Both the position numbers and the translations under genes were made by a program. Shown here in pieces: positions 12,703-24,489 of a DNA stretch of 64,000 bases (the first letter of the stretch is position 1; each line of letters begins with the position of its first letter). Under the pieces are notes generated by a model, which made no database searches, was not told where the DNA came from, and worked only from the letters and a program-made list of their open reading frames with translations. This DNA comes from Pyruvatibacter sp. HU-CL02332 (lineage in GTDB: Bacteria > Pseudomonadota > Alphaproteobacteria > CGMCC-115125). The stretch spans positions 1,713,501-1,777,500 of the forward strand of contig NZ_BAABWK010000001.1 in assembly GCF_040362765.1 (NCBI RefSeq), written 5' to 3'.

Positions 12703-14187
12703 CTATCTCTTGATCGAACCCAGAATGCCCCGGATCAGCTCGCGCCCAAGGGTACGGCCCACCTGCCGCACCATGGATTTGATAAAGGCCTCTGTTGCCC
12801 CCTGGCGCCGTGAGGCCTTGGGGCGGGCGCGGGCTTCCGCTTTTTCGCGTTCCTTACGCTCCTTTTCAGCGGTGGCAGCTTTCTCTGCTTCAGCGCGCTC
12901 TGCTTCCAGTTCAGCGCGACGCTTCTGAAGAATTTCGTAGGCCGACTCCCGATCAATCGTGGTGTCATAGGTCCCGCCAACCGGACTGGAGGCAAGTGTT
13001 GCCTTGCGCTCTTCAGGCGTGGCCGGTCCAAGGCGGGAACTCGGCGGCCGTATCAGAGTGCGTTCCACAATGCCCGGCACGCCTTTTTCGCCAAGGGTAG
13101 ATGTCAGGGCTTCCCCCACACCCAGTTGCGTGATGACTTCCGCGGTCTTGAGATTTGGGTTTGCCCGAAAAGTATCCGCAGCAACGCGCACAGCCTTTTG
13201 GTCGCGCGGGGTAAAGGCGCGCAACGCATGCTGGATACGGTTGCCCAACTGGCCCAGCACCTCGTCGGGAACATCAAGCGGGTTCTGCGTGACAAAATAG
13301 ATGCCCACCCCTTTGGAGCGGATGAGTTTCACAACCTGTGCAATGCGGTCCACCAGATGTTTTGGTGCATCGTCAAAAAGCAGGTGGGCTTCATCAAAGA
13401 AGAAAACCAGCTTCGGTTTCTCCGGGTCGCCGACTTCTGGGAGTTCCTCAAACAACTCTGACATCAGCCACAACATGAAGGTGGCATAAAGCTGTGGCGC
13501 ACGAATGAGCTTGTCGGATGCAAGGATATTCACCTGACCCCGACCATCATAGGTGGTCCGCATTAAGTCCTGTAGGCGCAGGGCGGGCTCTCCGAAGAAC
13601 TTGTCACCACCCTGGGTTTCCAGGGTGAGCAAGCGTCGCTGGATTGCGCCAATGGACGCTGTGGTCACATTGCCGTAGCGCCCCGATATGTCCTTTGTGT
13701 TTTCAGACATGAAGGACAGCATTTCGCGCAGGTCCTTGAGGTCCAGCAGCAGCATACCGTCTTCGTCTGCTAGCCGGAACGCAATGGTCAGCACACCTTC
13801 CTGCGTGTCATTGAGCCCCAGCTGCCGGGACAGCAGGATCGGCCCCATCTCCGAGATTGTCGTGCGGACCGGGTGCCCCTGCTCGCCGAACACGTCCCAG
13901 AACACAACCGGGTACTGAGAATATTTGTAGTCGTCCAGCCCGATGGTAGCGGCGCGCTTCTCAAGAAAGTCCTTCGACACCCCCGCTTGCGACATACCGG
14001 ACAGATCGCCTTTGACGTCTGCCATGAAGACGGGAACACCGGCTTCTGAAAAGCCCTCTGCCAGGATCTGGAGGGATACGGTTTTGCCTGTACCCGTCGC
14101 ACCTGCGATCAGCCCATGGCGGTTGGCCAGTTTGAGAGACAGGTGCTGGTCAATGGCACCGCGGCCAAGAAAGAGCTGCTGAGACAT
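12703..14187 (-). CDS. HerA/YjgR-type ATPase (DUF853)
   Basis: 494 residues. Walker A GATGTGKT at 29-36, Walker B LVFFFDEAHLLF near 268-279, and FVTQNPLDVPDEVLGQLGNRIQHALRAF with the arginine-finger region, all typical of the DUF853 (YjgR) branch of HerA/FtsK-like ATPases. The C-terminus (about 410-460) is a charged Glu/Lys/Arg coiled coil followed by a basic tail. Cytosolic. The cellular function of this family is not established; a DNA-translocase or hexameric ATPase role is inferred from the fold. It lies 23 bp downstream of the alpha/beta hydrolase gene, so they probably share a transcript. Confidence 0.9.
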   Translation of the reverse strand: MSQQLFLGRGAIDQHLSLKLANRHGLIAGATGTGKTVSLQILAEGFSEAGVPVFMADVKGDLSGMSQAGVSKDFLEKRAATIGLDDYKYSQYPVVFWDVFGEQGHPVRTTISEMGPILLSRQLGLNDTQEGVLTIAFRLADEDGMLLLDLKDLREMLSFMSENTKDISGRYGNVTTASIGAIQRRLLTLETQGGDKFFGEPALRLQDLMRTTYDGRGQVNILASDKLIRAPQLYATFMLWLMSELFEELPEVGDPEKPKLVFFFDEAHLLFDDAPKHLVDRIAQVVKLIRSKGVGIYFVTQNPLDVPDEVLGQLGNRIQHALRAFTPRDQKAVRVAADTFRANPNLKTAEVITQLGVGEALTSTLGEKGVPGIVERTLIRPPSSRLGPATPEERKATLASSPVGGTYDTTIDRESAYEILQKRRAELEAERAEAEKAATAEKERKEREKAEARARPKASRRQGATEAFIKSMVRQVGRTLGRELIRGILGSIKR

Positions 14188-14210: not shown

Positions 14211-15101
14211 TTAGTCTTTGAGGAAGTCGCGAGCAAGGCCCATGAACTCATCGAACTTGTCATGATGGACCCAGTGACCTGCGCCCTCCACATTCACCGC
14301 CTTGGCGTTCTTGAAGGCTTTGATCCGGCCGTCCTCAGTCGGGTCAGACGCCCAGCTGTCGGTGCCGCGCACCAGCATGACGGGAGCCTCAATGCGACCC
14401 CACAAGGCGCTGGTTTCCTCAGAGTCCCACCGGTCCGGCGGAAAGGCGCGGACGTAGTTGTCAAACTTCCAGGACCATGTCCCGTCTTCGTTTTGAATCA
14501 TGCCGTGCACGGTCAGGTGTCGTGAGTGTTCCGGGCTGAGATGCGGGTTTTCTTCCTGCATCCGCTTCACGGCGTCTTCCAGCTCTGGATATTTACGCGG
14601 TGAGCGCCCTGATAGGCCGCGCATCTGGTCGATCCAGCCTGACAGCCGTTCGTCCGCCGGCTTGCCTGCGCGCTGTGCTAGCATTTTCGGCGGTGGGCCA
14701 AGGCCCTCAATCGCAATCAGTTTCTCAACCGTCTCTGGGTAGATGCCTGTGTAGCGAAGCGAGATCGCACCGCCAAAGGAGTGCGCCAGGATCTTGAGAG
14801 GCGCCAGCTTCAACTGATGAATGAGCTGCGCAATATCATAGACATAGTCATTGATCATGTAGGTGCCGCCGACCATCCACTGACTGTCACCGTGCCCGCG
14901 CAGATCAGGCGCGATGATATGGTAGTCGTGGCGCAGCTCTTCGGCCACCCAGTCCCAGTTGCGGCAGTGGTCGCGCCCGCCATGCACCAGCAGCAGCGGT
15001 GGAGCATCCGGGTTTCCCCAGTCCACATAGTGAAGCCGCAGCCGTTGTGAGTAGTAGTTTCGGGACGCCGGCCCGACGATCAAATCAGTTTTATTGGTCA
15101 T
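14211..15101 (-). CDS. Alpha/beta-fold hydrolase
   Basis: 296 residues. Oxyanion-hole motif LLVHGGRDHCRNW near 38-49, nucleophile elbow AHSFGG with Ser108, acid near GTDSWASDP (Asp, about 249-251) and His in GAGHWVHHD near 277. No signal peptide. The family includes esterases, haloalkane dehalogenases (excluded here because the nucleophile is Ser) and AHL-degrading hydrolases. It diverges from the luxI-like gene across 183 bp, which makes a link to acyl-homoserine-lactone turnover conceivable but untested. Followed by the DUF853 ATPase gene. Confidence 0.85.
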   Translation of the reverse strand: MTNKTDLIVGPASRNYYSQRLRLHYVDWGNPDAPPLLLVHGGRDHCRNWDWVAEELRHDYHIIAPDLRGHGDSQWMVGGTYMINDYVYDIAQLIHQLKLAPLKILAHSFGGAISLRYTGIYPETVEKLIAIEGLGPPPKMLAQRAGKPADERLSGWIDQMRGLSGRSPRKYPELEDAVKRMQEENPHLSPEHSRHLTVHGMIQNEDGTWSWKFDNYVRAFPPDRWDSEETSALWGRIEAPVMLVRGTDSWASDPTEDGRIKAFKNAKAVNVEGAGHWVHHDKFDEFMGLARDFLKD

Positions 15102-15217
15102 GTCCGCACTTTACCCGCGCCATTGGGGTGAGGGAAAGGGCAGAAGAGAGCGCCTTTTTTTCTGAAAATTTTGCCCGTCAATCGCGGACATGCGCGAGTC
15201 CTGCGGGTCAACTCTCT

Positions 15218-15229
15218 ACCTACATAGGT
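15218..15229. promoter_or_regulatory. Short dyad upstream of luxI, possible lux-box half-like element
   Basis: ACCTA-CA-TAGGT, perfect symmetry, centred 61 bp before the luxI-like start. Outer ACCT/AGGT resemble lux-box ends but the element is shorter than the usual 18-20 bp box. Speculative. Confidence 0.25.
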
Positions 15230-15284
15230 GTGATGCTTCACAAAATCGATGGGAATGGAGCCTTCTAGTAAGCAGGAGGCTTAA

Positions 15285-15926
15285 ATGATTGAGTGCATGA
15301 CATTTTCGACTGCAAACGAGTTTGGGGACGCTCTGGTGGACTATCACCGCATGCGCTACCGGCTGTTCATAGAACGTGAAGGCTGGGACATTCCCCATTT
15401 CGACAACCTTGAGTATGACCAGTTTGATACGCCTGCGACGGTCTATCTGATCAAGCGTCGGCCCGAGACGGGCGAAGTGATGGGCGGCATGCGCCTTATT
15501 CCCACCACTCAGCCTTATCTGGCAGAGCACGTCTGGCCGAACATTATCCAGACCCGCCCGATTCCCAAGGACCCAAAGGTCTGGGAAGGCACACGGATGA
15601 GCGCCGCCCCGGAACTGTCCGTGGAAGAACGGCGTCAGACGCTGTCCGAGTTGGGCATCGGATTCGTTGAGTTCTTGCTGAGCGTCGGCGCCGACCGCGT
15701 CATCTTCGAGATGCCGCCCAAACTCCTCGAGTTCCAATCACGCGCGAACCCCGAATTCGTTGAGAGGCTGGGTGAGCCAATCACGCTCGACGACGGCACG
15801 CTACTCGTGGGTGGCTGGATACATCTGAGCGAAACCACTCTTGCGGCCTATCGCGCCGGAGCTGGTGTCACAGATGACATCGTGACCTATCCAAAAGCGA
15901 GCATCCCATATCGCAAGGCGGCCTGA
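15285..15926 (+). CDS. Acyl-homoserine-lactone synthase, LuxI family
   Basis: 213 residues, the family's normal length. Makes N-acyl-homoserine lactone signals from S-adenosylmethionine and an acyl-ACP or acyl-CoA. All the near-invariant LuxI residues are in register: Arg24, Phe28, Trp34, Asp45, Asp48, Arg70, Glu101 and Arg104 (segments MRYRLFIEREGWDI, YDQFDTPATVYLI, GGMRLIPT, WEGTRMSA). An excellent AGGAGG lies 5 nt before the ATG. No LuxR-type receptor is present anywhere in the window. A 34-bp palindrome/terminator follows. Acyl-chain specificity cannot be read. Confidence 0.94.
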   Translation: MIECMTFSTANEFGDALVDYHRMRYRLFIEREGWDIPHFDNLEYDQFDTPATVYLIKRRPETGEVMGGMRLIPTTQPYLAEHVWPNIIQTRPIPKDPKVWEGTRMSAAPELSVEERRQTLSELGIGFVEFLLSVGADRVIFEMPPKLLEFQSRANPEFVERLGEPITLDDGTLLVGGWIHLSETTLAAYRAGAGVTDDIVTYPKASIPYRKAA

Positions 15927-15959
15927 CGCCAGGACAAGATCCTGGTTGCCATGCCTATC

Positions 15960-15998
15960 ATTGACCCGAATGCACATGTGTATTCGGGTCAATTGCTT
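15960..15998 (+). terminator. Palindromic terminator after luxI
   Basis: 34-bp palindrome: arms ATTGACCCGAAT / ATTCGGGTCAAT around GCACATGTGT, in which CACATGTG is itself self-complementary. A short pyrimidine tail (TGCTTTT) follows. It works as a hairpin terminator, and its symmetry would also suit protein binding. Confidence 0.7.
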
Positions 15999-16161
15999 TT
16001 CAAAGACCAGCGAATTACTGAGCGCTTTCTCTACGAAAGGACTTGAGAACTGTCACTTTGCTTTGCGAAACTCCTATCAGAGCGGATGGGCGAATCCCTG
16101 CCGCATGAGTGCCCGACTGCGCATGACGCATTCAGGTGCCAAAGGAAGTGGAAAAGCGCTC

Positions 16162-16425
16162 ATGTTGGACGCCCGCGTCAAAGGTCTTTTTCAACAATGG
16201 CTGCAGGATGCAACGCCCGCCCCCTGGGGTGTGGCCCATGATCGCGACACTGACACCTACAAAATTGTGGCCCGAGACGATGATGGCCGCCCGCGCCTGG
16301 ATGCTGCGGGCGGTCAGATCACCATAGCCACAGGCATGACGCGCTCTGATGCTGCCATGCTGGTGCAGCTGCGCACGCTTCTGGATGAGGACGAAACCCC
16401 ATCTCGGGTGGTCAGTCTCTTCTAG
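16162..16425 (+). CDS. Conserved-looking small hypothetical protein
   Basis: 87 residues from ATG 16162, preceded by AAAGGAAGTGGA. In-frame ATGs at 16105 and 16123 lack good ribosome-binding sites. The composition is regular for a soluble protein: an N-terminal helix (DARVKGLFQQWL), a beta-rich middle (YKIVARDDDGRPRLDAAG) and a C-terminal helix with a repeat of Met and Leu residues. No family recognised. Its stop codon shares a CTAG with the stop of the convergent sulfatase-like gene, which supports this frame being real. Confidence 0.65.
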   Translation: MLDARVKGLFQQWLQDATPAPWGVAHDRDTDTYKIVARDDDGRPRLDAAGGQITIATGMTRSDAAMLVQLRTLLDEDETPSRVVSLF

Positions 16426-17753
16426 ACGTCATTCTCGCCGGCTTTGAGGCGTGACTCTCGCTCCGCCCAGCCAAAAATGCCCTTGGACATCAAAGACAGT
16501 TCTGCCTGCCGTCGCGCACCATAGATTTCAGCGCGAGCCGCATGCGCTTCCCGATTGTCCGGCTCTGCAAGGGCGGCGGATTCAACAAGATGGCAGGCCA
16601 GTCGCATGTCAGCCTCTACGCCAGTGCCAGCAAGGGTTTGCGCACGAGCAACCACAGGGCCGACGCCGCCCGCGAGCGATATCATTTCCTGAGCCAGAGC
16701 CGCATCCGGCGCCGGTTTCAGGCGCGATGGGTTGCCATCATACCAGCCGCCATAGAGCCGCCAGATATTGTGCAAAATGAATTCTGGTTCATCATACACG
16801 GGCTTGAGATAAGGCTTGTCCATGAAGTGAGACGGTAATTTGACCGAGTGCAACACCTCGTCAAACCGCGCGCCATTGTTCATCATCTCCAGCGACTGCT
16901 GTACCAGCAGTTCCAGCGCGGTAGCGATCGTGTCCAGCACCGAGGCGATACGCGCCTTGCCTTCAATCGGCAGCCCGTGTGCAGGAAGCAGCAACTCGGG
17001 CTCCTTGGCCGCCATGTCGCGTAGTGCCTTTGCCCATTCAAGCGGATACCGCTGCACTTTTTGTGGGTTCCCGGCATTGGGGAAAACCCACGTCACAAAA
17101 TCGCCGGAGCAAATGGCCTTGTGCTCGGGTATCCAGGCCCACAGATGATCATCTGTTTCGCCGATCGCATGGTTCAGCTGAAATGTCAGATCGCCCGCGC
17201 GCAACGTCATCGCATCGCGAAACGTCGTATCCGGATCAACCCAGGGGTCAGGTCCAAACCGACGTGGCTGCGGTGGTCCCCCTTCATTGCCGCTTCCGCC
17301 GCCCATCTTGAGTTCCGTAGCGGGAGCAAACTGTCGGGCATTGATAGTGAAGTTGTATCCATTGGTCAGCTCGTAGCGCCGGAAGCGCGGGCTCACATTT
17401 TCATGGGCAACAACCTGCGGGCGTGTATGACCGCGCTCACAGGCATCACACAAAATGGCACCGGTACCGCCCACATGGTCCGCATGGCCATGGGTGTAGC
17501 AAACATGCGTCACCGGCTCATCGGTCCAGCGCCGAAGCGACTTGACGACACCACCAGCAAAAGCATCGAGGCTAGTGTCGAAGAGCACCACGCCGTCACC
17601 GGACTTGAGGGCCACCACATGGCTGAAGGCTTCAATGATGGCAACGCCATCGCCGACCTCGGAAAGCTCTGTCGTCGGACGATTGATCAGCCCGGCACCT
17701 TCATACACCCCATCGTCAATGTAGTGCGCAGACTTCGCCAGAATGTCAGACAT
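16422..17753 (-). CDS. Metallo-beta-lactamase-fold hydrolase, alkylsulfatase-like
   Basis: 443 residues. Metal-binding HGHADH at 88-93 (THGHADHVGG), a further His in LNHAIGETDDH, Asp in ICSGDFV, and HGLPIEG near 251. The segment NIWRLYGGWYDGNPSRLKP near 327 is the alkylsulfatase dimerisation-domain signature, followed by a helical region. Best reading: a relative of SDS-hydrolysing alkyl sulfatases (SdsA1/BDS1 type) that cleave sulfate esters, although shorter than the roughly 650-residue classical enzymes and with no signal peptide or C-terminal SCP2-like domain. Substrate uncertain. Confidence 0.85.
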   Translation of the reverse strand: MSDILAKSAHYIDDGVYEGAGLINRPTTELSEVGDGVAIIEAFSHVVALKSGDGVVLFDTSLDAFAGGVVKSLRRWTDEPVTHVCYTHGHADHVGGTGAILCDACERGHTRPQVVAHENVSPRFRRYELTNGYNFTINARQFAPATELKMGGGSGNEGGPPQPRRFGPDPWVDPDTTFRDAMTLRAGDLTFQLNHAIGETDDHLWAWIPEHKAICSGDFVTWVFPNAGNPQKVQRYPLEWAKALRDMAAKEPELLLPAHGLPIEGKARIASVLDTIATALELLVQQSLEMMNNGARFDEVLHSVKLPSHFMDKPYLKPVYDEPEFILHNIWRLYGGWYDGNPSRLKPAPDAALAQEMISLAGGVGPVVARAQTLAGTGVEADMRLACHLVESAALAEPDNREAHAARAEIYGARRQAELSLMSKGIFGWAERESRLKAGENDV

Positions 17754-18819: not shown

Positions 18820-21045
18820 CTATTCAGCAGCACTGGCAGCGTGAGATGCAACCCTTCGGGACGCGGGGAAGACTAGGCGGACTGTTGTTCCTTCTCCGAC
18901 CGAGCTGTCTATCTCAATGGTGCCCTCGTGCAGCTTCATGAAGGCGGCAACGACGGTCAGCCCCAGACCGACACCGTCTGAGGTTCGGTGTGCAAACGCC
19001 TTGACCTGCTGAAATGGCATCAGGATGGATGAAAGCATGTCTGCAGGAATGCCATCGCCCTGGTCTTCAACCTCAACGATCGGCTGGCCGCCTTGGTTAG
19101 TGCGTGTGCGAACGGTGATGGGTGCGTCCGGAGGTGAGTAACAGGCGGCATTCTTGATGAGATTGCCGATGGCGCGTTGAATGCGGGGGCCGTCAGCCAG
19201 AACCTCTCCGACGTCAAAATCAAACTCGGTCCGAATGACGTGAGCGCAGGAATCGGTATCTCCGCGCGCTGCGTGGATGGCACCCTCGGCAATTTCAGCA
19301 AGACAAACTGCATCGTCCGCAAGCTGCACATCGCCCATTTCAGCGCGCGTTACATCCATGATGTCATTGACGATACTAAGCAAATGACGCCCGCTGCCGC
19401 TGATATGCGCCGCATATTCCTGATAATCGGGCGACCCGAGAGGACCTAGCGCCTGCTGCTCCATCAACTCCGCAAACCCGATAACCGAGTTGAGCGGAGT
19501 GCGTAACTCATGGCTCATATTGGCGATGAAATCTGTCTTCGCACGGTTGGCCCGTTCCGCCTGCTCCCGTGCTTCGCGTTGCGCTGTCACGGCGCGAATG
19601 CTGTCGGTCACATCGCGGATCGTAAGGCCCAGTACATGCCGATACATCTTTCCGTTTGGCAACGGAGTATCAACAGGGACCTCGCTGCGGTTGAGCCTTA
19701 TCTCCAGATGGTGTTCGGTCCCCTCCCTGACAACGCGGCCTAGTACCGGCTCACCTAGCGGTACGTTGTGCCAGCCTCCCGCAGGCCTGTCGCGATCAAG
19801 CGACAGATTCTCGACCAGGTAGTCAAGGTTGGCTGCAGTGCCTGTATGCGGCGCGTTGCACAGGTCAAATGTCTGTTTGTTGGCTTGTTCAATGCAGCCA
19901 TTGGCATCAAGGATCGCAATCCCATCGAAGCTGTCCGAGACGACACGGTCCAGGAGAATACGTTGATGAGAGGCAATCCGCTTCTGTCGAGCCGCATTGC
20001 GCCTTTGCAGATCTGACATGAGTACAAGCTGAAGGCCAAACAGCAGCATCAGAGCAAACAGGGCAGGTAGTATATCGAGACTAATGGCCGCGAAATGCTG
20101 AAGCAGTCCAGAGACTGCGAGCAAACCGACAACTGCAACCGCTACAATGGCCGCATGCCCGATCCAGCCTCGTTGTTGAGGCATGCACAAAGCGCCTGCC
20201 AGAACCAGGATAACGAGAAGAACAACACCAATTGGTCCGGTCCGGTGTATTTCGCGACCCTGATGAAGTGTCTCAAATCCCATTGCCTGGACCATCGGCC
20301 CTGACATGACGCCATAGCGCGGCACAGCAAAATGGTCACCGAGTTCAACCGCGGTGCCGCCGATGATGACGCGTTTGCCATTCACAACATTGACGTCGAA
20401 CCGTCCGTCCATCACATCCACAAAAGAGATGCGGGGGATCGTGCGCACATCTATGCCGTAGTCGACGTAGAACGGTTCCGGCTTTGGCTTTGCCTTACCT
20501 GCAAGCAGCGCAAACATGGAGTATCGAAACGCGCCATCCGCATTCCACATGCCGTGCATCAGTTGACGTAGACGACCATCTTTGTCCGGAACAACATTGA
20601 CGCTGCCAAGCCAGGCATGGGGAGTGAGTTCAGGTGTCGGTTCAGCGTCGATAAGATTTCCGTCATACACGCCGGGTTGCGCCAGCTGCGTGAAGGCCGG
20701 GAGGATCACATGACCGCCTGCATCTTCAAGCGCGCGCGCGAGTGCGGCCGTCTCGTTCTCATTGGTCCGGGCGCTCATGTCCACATCAATGGCAATTTCA
20801 TCCGCACCTGCAGCGACCAGTGACCGGACTACAAAGGCATATGTATTGCGTGGTAACGGCCATTGGCCCAATTCCTGGACGGACCGGGCATCAATCTGGA
20901 CGGCGACGACTTCTCCGGATGCAGATCGATCAAGAAGACTGAAGCGAGATTCCAGCAGCGCGAGCTCAAGGGTTTCCAGCGCGCCGAACGCAAAAGCGCC
21001 CATGGCGATGAAAAACACAGCACATCCCTGAACAAGCCGCTGCAT
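18820..21045 (-). CDS. CHASE2-domain sensor histidine kinase with PAS domain
   Basis: About 741 residues. I take the ATG at 21045 (GGAGG upstream) over a GTG at 21063. N-terminal span, extracytoplasmic CHASE2 domain (about 30-265, including AVQIDARSVQELGQWPLPR and RVIIGGTAVELGD), three closely spaced membrane spans (about 270-345) as usual for CHASE2 proteins, a PAS-like domain (about 365-485), then HisKA with phospho-acceptor His512 in NMSHELRTPLNSVIGFAELM, and an HATPase with N box (RAIGNLIKNAACYS), GDGIPADM and VGLGLTVV. No response regulator is adjacent. Its neighbours are a FecR-domain protein and a divergent TpsB, a recurring genomic association for CHASE2 sensors. Confidence 0.92.
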   Translation of the reverse strand: MQRLVQGCAVFFIAMGAFAFGALETLELALLESRFSLLDRSASGEVVAVQIDARSVQELGQWPLPRNTYAFVVRSLVAAGADEIAIDVDMSARTNENETAALARALEDAGGHVILPAFTQLAQPGVYDGNLIDAEPTPELTPHAWLGSVNVVPDKDGRLRQLMHGMWNADGAFRYSMFALLAGKAKPKPEPFYVDYGIDVRTIPRISFVDVMDGRFDVNVVNGKRVIIGGTAVELGDHFAVPRYGVMSGPMVQAMGFETLHQGREIHRTGPIGVVLLVILVLAGALCMPQQRGWIGHAAIVAVAVVGLLAVSGLLQHFAAISLDILPALFALMLLFGLQLVLMSDLQRRNAARQKRIASHQRILLDRVVSDSFDGIAILDANGCIEQANKQTFDLCNAPHTGTAANLDYLVENLSLDRDRPAGGWHNVPLGEPVLGRVVREGTEHHLEIRLNRSEVPVDTPLPNGKMYRHVLGLTIRDVTDSIRAVTAQREAREQAERANRAKTDFIANMSHELRTPLNSVIGFAELMEQQALGPLGSPDYQEYAAHISGSGRHLLSIVNDIMDVTRAEMGDVQLADDAVCLAEIAEGAIHAARGDTDSCAHVIRTEFDFDVGEVLADGPRIQRAIGNLIKNAACYSPPDAPITVRTRTNQGGQPIVEVEDQGDGIPADMLSSILMPFQQVKAFAHRTSDGVGLGLTVVAAFMKLHEGTIEIDSSVGEGTTVRLVFPASRRVASHAASAAE

Positions 21046-21070
21046 GTCCTGCGGCACCTCCACATAGAAA

Positions 21071-21136: not shown

Positions 21137-22531
<1,395 letters not shown>

Positions 22532-22770
22532 AATTGTTCTCTCCATGTCGGGCTTATCCGACCCCAACCGAAGTCTGGCATATGTCTAAAATTTTGAAAC
22601 AAGGCATTGGAAGTAAAGGAAAGAATCACTTAACCCGAAGGGGTGTATTTGAGTGAGTAGGTAATTCTTAAGCTTCGGGATGGCAGCACTCATTGGTTGC
22701 AGCCAGCACTTGTCCCAAAGCGGGATCGCTAAAATGTTTGTCGGCAACCAGGACTCAATGCTCAACGAAA

Positions 22771-24489
22771 ATGGCTCTCCTGCATTTCCACACCCTGGAC
22801 CGCATACCGCATGTTGTGATGCTCGCGGTGACCGTGCCTGCCCTGTGCGCAACGATGTGGATACAGGACGCTCACTCTCAGGCCTCGCAGGAAGCAGACC
22901 CCAGCCGCATTGAAGACCAGCTCATTGAGCGTGAAGCGCCTTCGCGCAAGCCGACCGCTGATGACCTCAGCCTCGGTATTGCCGGTGCGGGTACCGACGA
23001 CATCAACGTTCCACCTTTCATTCTAAGCGGTGTGACTGTTGAAGGGGCTACGGCCTTTTCTGGCGAAGAGATCGCCGCAACATATGCTTCGCTCCTCGCA
23101 ACCCAAATTGGGTCGGCCGAACTTGAAGCTATTGCCGGTCGCATCACAGCGCTCTATCGCGACGCAGGCTATGTGCTGTCACGCGCCATACTTCCGCCTC
23201 AGGACGTTACAACCGGAATAATCCGTATTCAGATTATTGAAGGGTATGTAAGCCATGTAACGACAGATGGCACGGTGCCGGAGTACGCCATCAAAGGTTA
23301 TGCGGCGCGCATTACAGAAGAGCGCCCACTTACCCTCAATACGCTTGAGCGCAACATGTTGCTCATCAATGACATGCCTGGCGTCACGCTCAATGATGCA
23401 GTTCTGTCTGAAGATGACGCGGTGCCAGGCGCGCATACCCTTGCACTTGAAATAGGCCTCGACCGTATTGGCGGTTCATTCTTTGTGGACAATCGTGGTT
23501 CAGCAGAAGTCGGGCCCGTTCAGGCCGGCGCAAGTGTCGAGCTGCGAAATACAATCGGCTTTGGTGATGCCGTGTCCGTTGCGGGCTTTACTGTGCCAAG
23601 CCAGCCACGCGAACTGAAACTTATCCGCATTGGTTACGCGATGCCCATCGGCTCCAGTGGATTGCAGATGAGCGTGTCGGGAACAGCAAGCTGGATTGAC
23701 GCCGGCGGTACCCTCGATGCTGTGGGCGATGAGAGTAATCTCAAGTCAGTGTCGGCAAGCTTGGCCTATCCAGTTGTGCGCGCGCGGGATGCAAACATCT
23801 GGCTCAATGCCAGCCTTGATGTCAGAAGTGCGGAAGAACGTACGGACTTCGGTACCGTCTTCGATGAAGATCTTGTGGTTCTGCGCGGCAGTGTGTCGGG
23901 CATGACTGCGGATGGTTGGGGTGGCCGCAGTTACGTCACGTTCCGGGCATCCAAGGGTGTTCGCCTTATGAATGCTGCCAAGCGAGGCGATCCGCTGTTG
24001 TCGAGGACCGATGCTGACCCACAGGCCGCCACACTGACCGTGGATGTATCCCGCTATCAGCAGCTTGTTGGTGATCTGCTTTCTTTGACGCTGGCAGGCA
24101 GAGCGCAAAGGGCGACTGACGCGCTTGTTTCCTCGGAAGAGTTCAGTCTTGGAGGGGCCCGGTTCGGTCGAGGCTTTGAATATGGCGAGCTGACCGGTGA
24201 TGACGGGATTGCGGGTTCAGTCGAGTTCACGATCGCTCCTGACATCGAACTGGCCTGGGTGTCCCGCCCGCAGATTTATGCGTTCTACGACACAGGCGCT
24301 GTATGGAACAGAAACGTGGTCTTTGGTGACGCCCGGCAGTCCTTGTCGTCCGCCGGGGCCGGCATCCGGCTGACCTTTGCGGACGATTTCAACGCCGGTT
24401 TTGAGTTGGCCAAGCCGTTGGACCGCGACTCAAGCCGCACCAACACAGATGAATGGCAGGCGCTCTTCTTCCTATCCGGGCAGCTTTAA
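22771..24489 (+). CDS. ShlB/FhaC/HecB-type two-partner-secretion transporter (TpsB)
   Basis: About 572 residues from ATG 22771; signal peptide with hydrophobic stretch VVMLAVTVPALCATM and a DAHSQA-like end, start not certain (upstream in-frame starts exist). A POTRA region follows (FILSGVTVEGATAFS near 82, then LPPQDVTTGIIRIQIIEGYV), then a 16-strand barrel pattern ending in SGQL. The conserved TpsB/Omp85 motif is present as FSLGGARFGRGFEYGEL, and the barrel part includes FVDNRGSAEVGPVQAG. TpsB proteins sit in the outer membrane and export TpsA adhesins or haemolysins. No TpsA gene is in the window, so this is an orphan. It diverges from the FecR-repeat gene. Confidence 0.9.
   Translation: MALLHFHTLDRIPHVVMLAVTVPALCATMWIQDAHSQASQEADPSRIEDQLIEREAPSRKPTADDLSLGIAGAGTDDINVPPFILSGVTVEGATAFSGEEIAATYASLLATQIGSAELEAIAGRITALYRDAGYVLSRAILPPQDVTTGIIRIQIIEGYVSHVTTDGTVPEYAIKGYAARITEERPLTLNTLERNMLLINDMPGVTLNDAVLSEDDAVPGAHTLALEIGLDRIGGSFFVDNRGSAEVGPVQAGASVELRNTIGFGDAVSVAGFTVPSQPRELKLIRIGYAMPIGSSGLQMSVSGTASWIDAGGTLDAVGDESNLKSVSASLAYPVVRARDANIWLNASLDVRSAEERTDFGTVFDEDLVVLRGSVSGMTADGWGGRSYVTFRASKGVRLMNAAKRGDPLLSRTDADPQAATLTVDVSRYQQLVGDLLSLTLAGRAQRATDALVSSEEFSLGGARFGRGFEYGELTGDDGIAGSVEFTIAPDIELAWVSRPQIYAFYDTGAVWNRNVVFGDARQSLSSAGAGIRLTFADDFNAGFELAKPLDRDSSRTNTDEWQALFFLSGQL

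Follow-up and report, generated by a model that had tools for sequence, protein, structure and literature searches.

luxI-1 as a LuxI solo with a candidate distant receptor and a conserved lux-type element

The AHL synthase gene luxI-1, which lies within the 64-kb stretch of DNA analysed here (the window), has no luxR beside it and is best read as a LuxI solo, an already known kind of gene, with its receptor encoded elsewhere in the genome, most likely as the unpaired LuxR protein SoloA (we put the probability of this reading, made from sequence comparison, at roughly 0.6). LuxI solos tend to be catalogued as genes for a signal whose listener is not known, and here luxI-1 is probably wired to a distant LuxR, the link being a shared candidate element. 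The features concerned are:

15285..15926, + strand: luxI-1, LuxI-type AHL synthase, 213 amino acids, F84 replaced by W
15209..15231, + strand: conserved lux-box-like element, 23 bp, upstream of luxI-1
G000:C1:875714-876610, - strand: soloA, unpaired LuxR protein

In a profile search the luxI-1 product matched PF00765 with E=3e-15 and 56.7 bits, exceeding the curated cut-off of 24, and its best relatives among solved structures were AHL synthases (3p2f, E=7e-22; LasI 1ro5, E=1e-14), bearing out the LuxI-type synthase that the earlier note had placed at this locus. That note had also found all hallmark LuxI residues present, which holds for eight of the nine positions that we take to be the hallmarks (R24, F28, W34, D45, D48, R70, E101 and R104) but not for F84, which is W. 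The same W84 is found in 11 of the 33 aligned LuxIs, eight from this genus together with L016, L021 and L023. By these comparisons luxI-1 is an intact LuxI-family AHL synthase gene, whose product is predicted to make AHL. Both luxI-1 and a second synthase gene, luxI-2, are present in all four genomes of the genus (G000 to G003). Relatives of LuxI-1 outside the genus are 41% identical at best; a scan of genome contigs returned a single relative, the G003 contig (L007), no close relatives were found in the viral contigs scanned, and each of the 524 plasmid records with a match fell below 60% identity.

A genome-wide search for Autoind_bind (PF03472) gave four matches, all of them outside the window, in agreement with the earlier note, and no luxR was found at the luxI-1 locus in the other genomes of the genus (stretches of 19 kb in both G001 and G002, and a 10.8-kb contig in G003). 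Outside the genus a LuxR-like ORF lies within about 1.5 kb of luxI at 24 of 26 loci in the class, and so the genus is the exception at this locus. While luxI-1 is of the same LuxI family as the synthases of canonical luxR-luxI pairs (luxI-2, also in this genome, and loci L017-L020 of the f40 family), the adjacent luxR of those pairs is absent from it. Solos of this kind have been described before, with 17 luxI solos lacking a linked luxR counted in the Roseobacter clade (PMC3907830, in the portions available). Among them SscI of Ruegeria sp. KLH11 resembles LuxI-1 in being an AHL synthase without a linked luxR in an alphaproteobacterium with paired luxR-luxI genes elsewhere in its genome; sscI was reported there not to be under SsaR or SsbR regulation, whereas the conserved element before luxI-1 suggests control by a distant LuxR. 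The LuxI solos of Sphingobium likewise keep the conserved residues without an intact adjoining luxR, but in strains IP26 and KK2 a truncated LuxR-like gene adjoins the solo (PMC4288048, in the portions available). Beside luxI-1 we noticed no LuxR-like remnant; its neighbours are other genes.

A genome search for LuxR solos, as the earlier note had proposed, yielded soloA and two other unpaired LuxR types, and scans for their lux boxes yielded lux-box-like elements. Elsewhere the genome holds one ordinary luxR-luxI pair (luxR-2/luxI-2), adjoined by a small HTH-like gene, and three further LuxR-like genes, soloA among them. Both soloA and luxR-2 occur in 4/4 genomes of the genus and the other two LuxR types in 2/4 each, counts on which the 81% completeness of G003 bears. 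Taking the AHL-binding positions of LuxR to be W57, Y61, D70, P71, W85 and G113, LuxR-2 has all six and SoloA keeps five (W57, Y61, D70, W85 and G113, with P71 replaced by V), and the remaining unpaired LuxR types have two each. In G000, luxI-1 and soloA lie about 0.85 Mb apart. The deep branching of the LuxR and LuxI trees was unresolved, with long branches, and co-descent of luxI-1 and soloA was neither supported nor refuted by them.

A lux box is a 20-bp dyad with ACCT...AGGT-like ends that stands before its target. The core of the luxI-1 element is 20 bp long (15210-15229, AACTCT-N8-ATAGGT), with an exact right arm and a degenerate left arm, and the element sits some 54-76 bp upstream of the luxI-1 start; its geometry appears to be that of a lux box with one weak arm. 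With this single intact arm it did not match the strict dyad CCTAT-N8-ATAGKT, which returned 3, 1, 3 and 4 rows in the four genomes of the genus compared to 1, 0, 0 and 0 for a reversed control. The full dyad is found at the soloA site in G000, G001 and G003, where the element stands after soloA and not before it (nothing similar was found in the region before soloA), and at the site before the HTH-like gene beside luxI-2 in G000, G002 and G003; this last, sister element is present in 4/4 genomes. When the regions ahead of luxI and luxR genes were scanned for palindromes, the f40-family boxes showed up (CCCTAC-N8-GTAGGT, some 82 bp ahead of luxI in L018-L020), but the scan did not on its own single out the luxI-1 element in the window.

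PWM scans were made on a pool of 0.92 of the 3.45 Mb of G000, with loci L070-L074, which carry the short core ACCTNCNTAGGT, kept separate. The top non-self match of the luxI-1-site PWM in this pool was the soloA element, with a score of 22.8, compared to a top score of 21.5 in L070-L074. In the reverse search the soloA-site PWM returned the luxI-1 element first and then the element before the HTH-like gene, and the HTH-site PWM returned the soloA element but ranked the luxI-1 element only 15th and 25th. With 60 column-permuted PWMs per site set, none scored as high in the quorum-sensing loci as the real one, for any of the three sets. In G002 the match beside soloA is weaker (15.8, a score reached by 6 of 838 null segments, the null including L070-L074), and in that genome no conservation of the ORF after soloA was seen. 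The core ACCTNCNTAGGT itself was dropped as evidence because its counts were not above those of the reversed control (6 vs 6, 2 vs 12, 3 vs 18 and 1 vs 8 in G000 to G003); it occurs at six places in G000, of which only the one at luxI-1 falls outside called ORFs.

From these sequences we infer AHL production, DNA binding, the identity of the binding LuxR and the sign of regulation alike. LuxI-1 would be an AHL synthase whose most likely partner is SoloA; a LuxR would bind the lux-type element before the luxI-1 start, and the same LuxR would control luxI-1 and the genes with sister elements, namely the ORF after soloA and the HTH-like gene beside luxR-2/luxI-2. Extended to the genus, this could amount to a split quorum sensing system, in which an unlinked LuxI, an unlinked LuxR and a small stand-alone HTH-like protein encoded at the luxR-2/luxI-2 locus are joined by one lux-type element into a hierarchy of two synthases and two receptors, which we offer tentatively and as a possibility somewhat short of even odds.

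The binder might instead be LuxR-2, which has the full set of ligand residues and beside whose pair the sister element is kept throughout the genus; LuxI-1 would then feed or obey LuxR-2, with two synthases sharing one receptor and SoloA peripheral. We regard this as rather unlikely, as the luxI-1 element resembles the soloA element more than the HTH one, which scored 10.8 at best with the luxI-1-site PWM, and the other genomes of the genus do not keep the palindrome that precedes luxR-2 in G000. That LuxI-1 is a signal donor without a receptor in its own cell, or a synthase of the same fold making something other than AHL, such as an N-acyl amino acid, is very improbable: the missing local luxR, the F84W change and a weak match to the FeeM profile (22.3 bits, not reaching the cut-off of 27) would fit it, but the other hallmark positions are kept, the upstream element is conserved and W84 is also borne by luxI-2, L016, L021 and L023, each with a LuxR-like ORF near.

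An idea of a different kind, raised in the earlier note, was a make-and-degrade cassette in which the genes flanking luxI-1 turn over its AHL. The neighbouring features are:

12703..14187, - strand: HerA-like ATPase (PF05872), listed for context; same strand as the hydrolase and 23 bp downstream of it
14211..15101, - strand: alpha/beta hydrolase, 296 amino acids, divergent from luxI-1
16162..16425, + strand: small gene, 87 amino acids counted from an in-frame ATG, co-directional with luxI-1
16422..17753, - strand: metallo-beta-lactamase-fold protein, 443 amino acids, with an Alkyl_sulf_dimr domain

The two folds are those the note had named, and both include AHL-degrading enzymes. The arrangement is kept in the four genomes of the genus, though these are close relatives, and hydrolase and LuxI co-occur by genome above chance outside the genus (a LuxI match in 10 of 35 hydrolase-bearing genomes against an expected 4.0; Fisher p=0.002 with a total of 236 assumed). 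Against this, a LuxI match is lacking in 25 of those 35 genomes, the metallo-hydrolase converges on luxI-1 and the hydrolase is transcribed away from it, and at 27 loci outside the genus the hydrolase shows 59-69% identity, compared with a maximum of 41% for LuxI. Relatives occur there in 35/240 (hydrolase) and 14/240 (metallo-hydrolase) class genomes, and none of 27 hydrolase and 17 metallo-hydrolase loci had luxI or luxR within some 1.5 kb, or within a shorter distance where a contig ended. The best solved matches of the metallo-hydrolase are the alkylsulfatases PSdsA, SdsA1 and YjcS, as the note had suspected, with none of 21 named an AHL lactonase; of the 30 solved matches of the alpha/beta hydrolase to E=1e-10 none is named AHL-degrading, several being named just "hydrolase". 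Because relatives of both flanking genes lie away from luxI in the class, the cassette is unsupported, and despite the co-occurrence by genome we rejected it on gene neighbourhoods as the best reading and hold it to be highly improbable; the flanking hydrolases probably lie beside luxI-1 by chance and have no part in the signal.

The small gene between luxI-1 and the metallo-hydrolase was overlooked in the earlier note. Counted at first, second and third codon positions, its substitutions number 4/3/21, 5/6/40 and 7/3/45 in the three pairs among three genomes, and on this pattern it is a real gene. Among 289 class genomes it had matches in G000, G001 and G002 and a weak one in G004 (E=7e-4), and it is also present on the G003 contig L007; no Pfam family matched 16126-16422 up to E=1.

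A partial look at the open-licence literature turned up no description of AHL quorum sensing for the genus, most likely Candidatus Phaeomarinobacter. A 2014 genome paper on the genus makes no mention of quorum, homoserine, LuxI, LuxR or lactonase, and in the available part of a 2024 paper on the related Parvibaculaceae, quorum sensing comes up only in connection with transporters and with LuxR-family domains, which are abundant. The sequence supplies candidates for both the receptor and the control element of a LuxI solo, and thus the listener of such a solo becomes a testable question in a marine, algae-associated type of bacterium.

The LuxI-type synthase gene of the window, luxI-1, was indeed found between two hydrolase genes, as the earlier note had described, and a small gene lies on its downstream side:

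14211-15101, - strand: alpha/beta hydrolase
15285-15926, + strand: luxI-1, LuxI-type AHL synthase
16162-16425, + strand: small gene between luxI-1 and the metallo-hydrolase, with a codon-position substitution pattern
16422-17753, - strand: alkylsulfatase-like metallo-hydrolase

The luxI-1 gene looks functional, because the encoded protein matches PF00765 (E=3e-15, profile search), its best solved relatives in a structure-database comparison are AHL synthases, and 8 of 9 hallmark positions are standard, and an AHL would be its putative product; the claim that all hallmark LuxI residues are present thus stands at eight positions and fails at F84, which is W. Tryptophan occupies position 84 in 11 of 33 aligned LuxIs (eight of this genus plus those of loci L016, L021 and L023), and the closest LuxIs outside the genus, from five genomes, share 39-41% identity with LuxI-1. 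The small gene was called real because substitutions concentrate by codon position (4/3/21, 5/6/40 and 7/3/45 for three pairs among three genomes); across 289 class genomes it matched only in the source genome, G000, and its congeners G001 and G002, plus weakly in G004, another class genome (E=7e-4), and it is also on L007, the contig of the remaining congener, G003. Elsewhere in the window, a FecR-domain protein gene (21137-22567, - strand) contains 6.7 copies of a 48-bp tandem repeat (21240-21556), which encode GGLALGASN-type repeats; its neighbours code for a CHASE2 histidine kinase (18820-21063) and a ShlB/POTRA secretion protein (22693-24489).

It had been proposed that signal synthesis and degradation might be paired here, with the second hydrolase looking more like an alkylsulfatase. 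The latter impression was borne out, as the best solved relatives of the metallo-hydrolase are SdsA1-type alkylsulfatases. Of 240 class genomes, 38 have a match to the hydrolase (35 of these lie outside the genus; 59-69% identity in 27 loci fetched there) and 17 have one to the metallo-hydrolase (14 outside; 31-73% identity across 17 loci). In none of these 27 and 17 loci was luxI or luxR found within ~1.5 kb, or within the shorter stretch left where a contig ends, which argues against a make-and-degrade arrangement and for ordinary-looking neighbours; nor did a HerA gene adjoin the hydrolase in any of the 27 loci outside the genus. In favour of such an arrangement, the gene arrangement is kept in the four genus genomes, though these are close relatives, and 10 of 35 hydrolase-bearing genomes also have a LuxI match against 4.0 expected (Fisher p=0.002; genome lists copied from match tables, total of 236 assumed), a co-occurrence for which lineage or genome size could account.

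The G000 genome (3.45 Mb, 3 contigs), in which the window spans C1:1713501-1777500, encodes two LuxIs and four Autoind_bind proteins. The other synthase gene, luxI-2, sits directly after a LuxR gene, and the genome search for LuxR solos that the earlier note had suggested found three unpaired LuxR-like proteins, including:

G000 C1:875714-876610, - strand: soloA, LuxR-like, unpaired

Among 26 class luxI loci outside the genus (L016-L041, the best matches fetched, a subset of class LuxI matches), 24 had a LuxR-like ORF within ~1.5 kb, detected with a four-seed HMM; L034 had none within that distance and the L036 locus is cut by a contig end. The unpaired luxI-1 therefore sets the genus apart as an exception in the class. 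SoloA is present in 4/4 genus genomes and the remaining two unpaired types in 2/4 each (G003 being 81% complete). At the ligand-residue positions of TraR, soloA keeps 5 of 6 usual residues (P71 is V) and LuxR-2, encoded beside luxI-2, keeps 6/6; in the other unpaired types 2/6 remain, W57, W85 and G113 being among those lost. By elimination, soloA is likely to be the free receptor and a candidate partner of luxI-1. In the LuxR-like product of contig C2, two GerE stretches accompany a weak match to an AHL-binding domain; the gene for this product adjoins two tandem phosphofructokinase genes (L069:3689-5979, - strand).

The region 5' of luxI-1 has diverged among the four genomes apart from a few blocks, one around GTCAACTCTCTACCTACATAGGTG and another at the ribosome-binding end. 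When shared 18-mers were compared between this region (three of the four genomes) and the stretch after soloA (four genomes), the GTCAACTCTCTACCTACATAGGTG block came out on top in 7 of 12 pairs. When a PWM built on the four luxI-1 sites was scanned over 0.92 Mb of G000 (the window, 40 spread 20-kb stretches and the four LuxR loci), its top non-self match was the soloA element (22.8; next 20.7). In the same pool the soloA-site PWM returned luxI-1 as its top non-self match (22.3), followed by a site (20.5; next 18.4) that precedes a neighbouring gene of luxI-2 by 121 bp:

L067:10512-10865 = G000:C1:2177011-2177364, - strand: 118-aa HTH-like protein, 4/4 genus genomes

The PWM of this HTH-side site, itself present in 4/4 genus genomes, returned the soloA element (24.2; next 18.3) and ranked luxI-1 15th and 25th. 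Within the quorum-sensing loci (stretches of our own choosing around LuxR and LuxI genes), no column-permuted PWM (60 per set) scored as high as the real one, and these loci stood above the rest of the pool in 1 of 180 permuted matrices. The HTH label is our own reading of the sequence; Pfam yields just a weak Sigma70_r4_2 match (E=0.06) and nothing below that. In G003 this gene lies directly before luxR-2.

Searched for in the four genomes, the full dyad CCTAT-N8-ATAGKT gave 3, 1, 3 and 4 rows (in the third genome, two rows stem from a single palindromic site counted once per strand), and its reversed pattern gave 1, 0, 0 and 0. Of the 10 distinct sites, 6 are those of soloA or the HTH-like gene; the luxI-1 element is absent from the set. 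The element's geometry and ends, which we take to be like those of classical lux boxes, resemble those of the luxI box CCCTAC-N8-GTAGGT of the f40-family, a group of loci including canonical luxR-luxI pairs. In two genomes of that family a second small protein lies directly before the luxI-adjacent LuxR (L045:10920-11564, - strand, with no Pfam match; L047:7629-8273, + strand). No Pfam family matches the ORF after soloA; DNA alignment showed it to be conserved among G000, G001 and G003 and detected no such conservation in G002. Lux-box-like dyads also occur at G003:C226:2779-2797, ~30 bp before a small ORF, and G003:C601:311-329 (L080 and L083), and are possible extra targets.

As a LuxI solo, luxI-1 is of a type already known: 17 are counted in roseobacters, with sscI of KLH11 reported to lack regulation by SsaR or SsbR (PMC3907830), and LuxI solos are known in Sphingobium from a paper which also states that the SscI protein makes AHLs (PMC4288048). 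A word search of the Phaeomarinobacter genome paper (PMC4110880) found no mention of quorum, homoserine, LuxI, LuxR or lactonase. From the element we infer that the receptor for luxI-1 can likely be named, and the interest of luxI-1 would lie in this element held in common, which points to the likely receptor.
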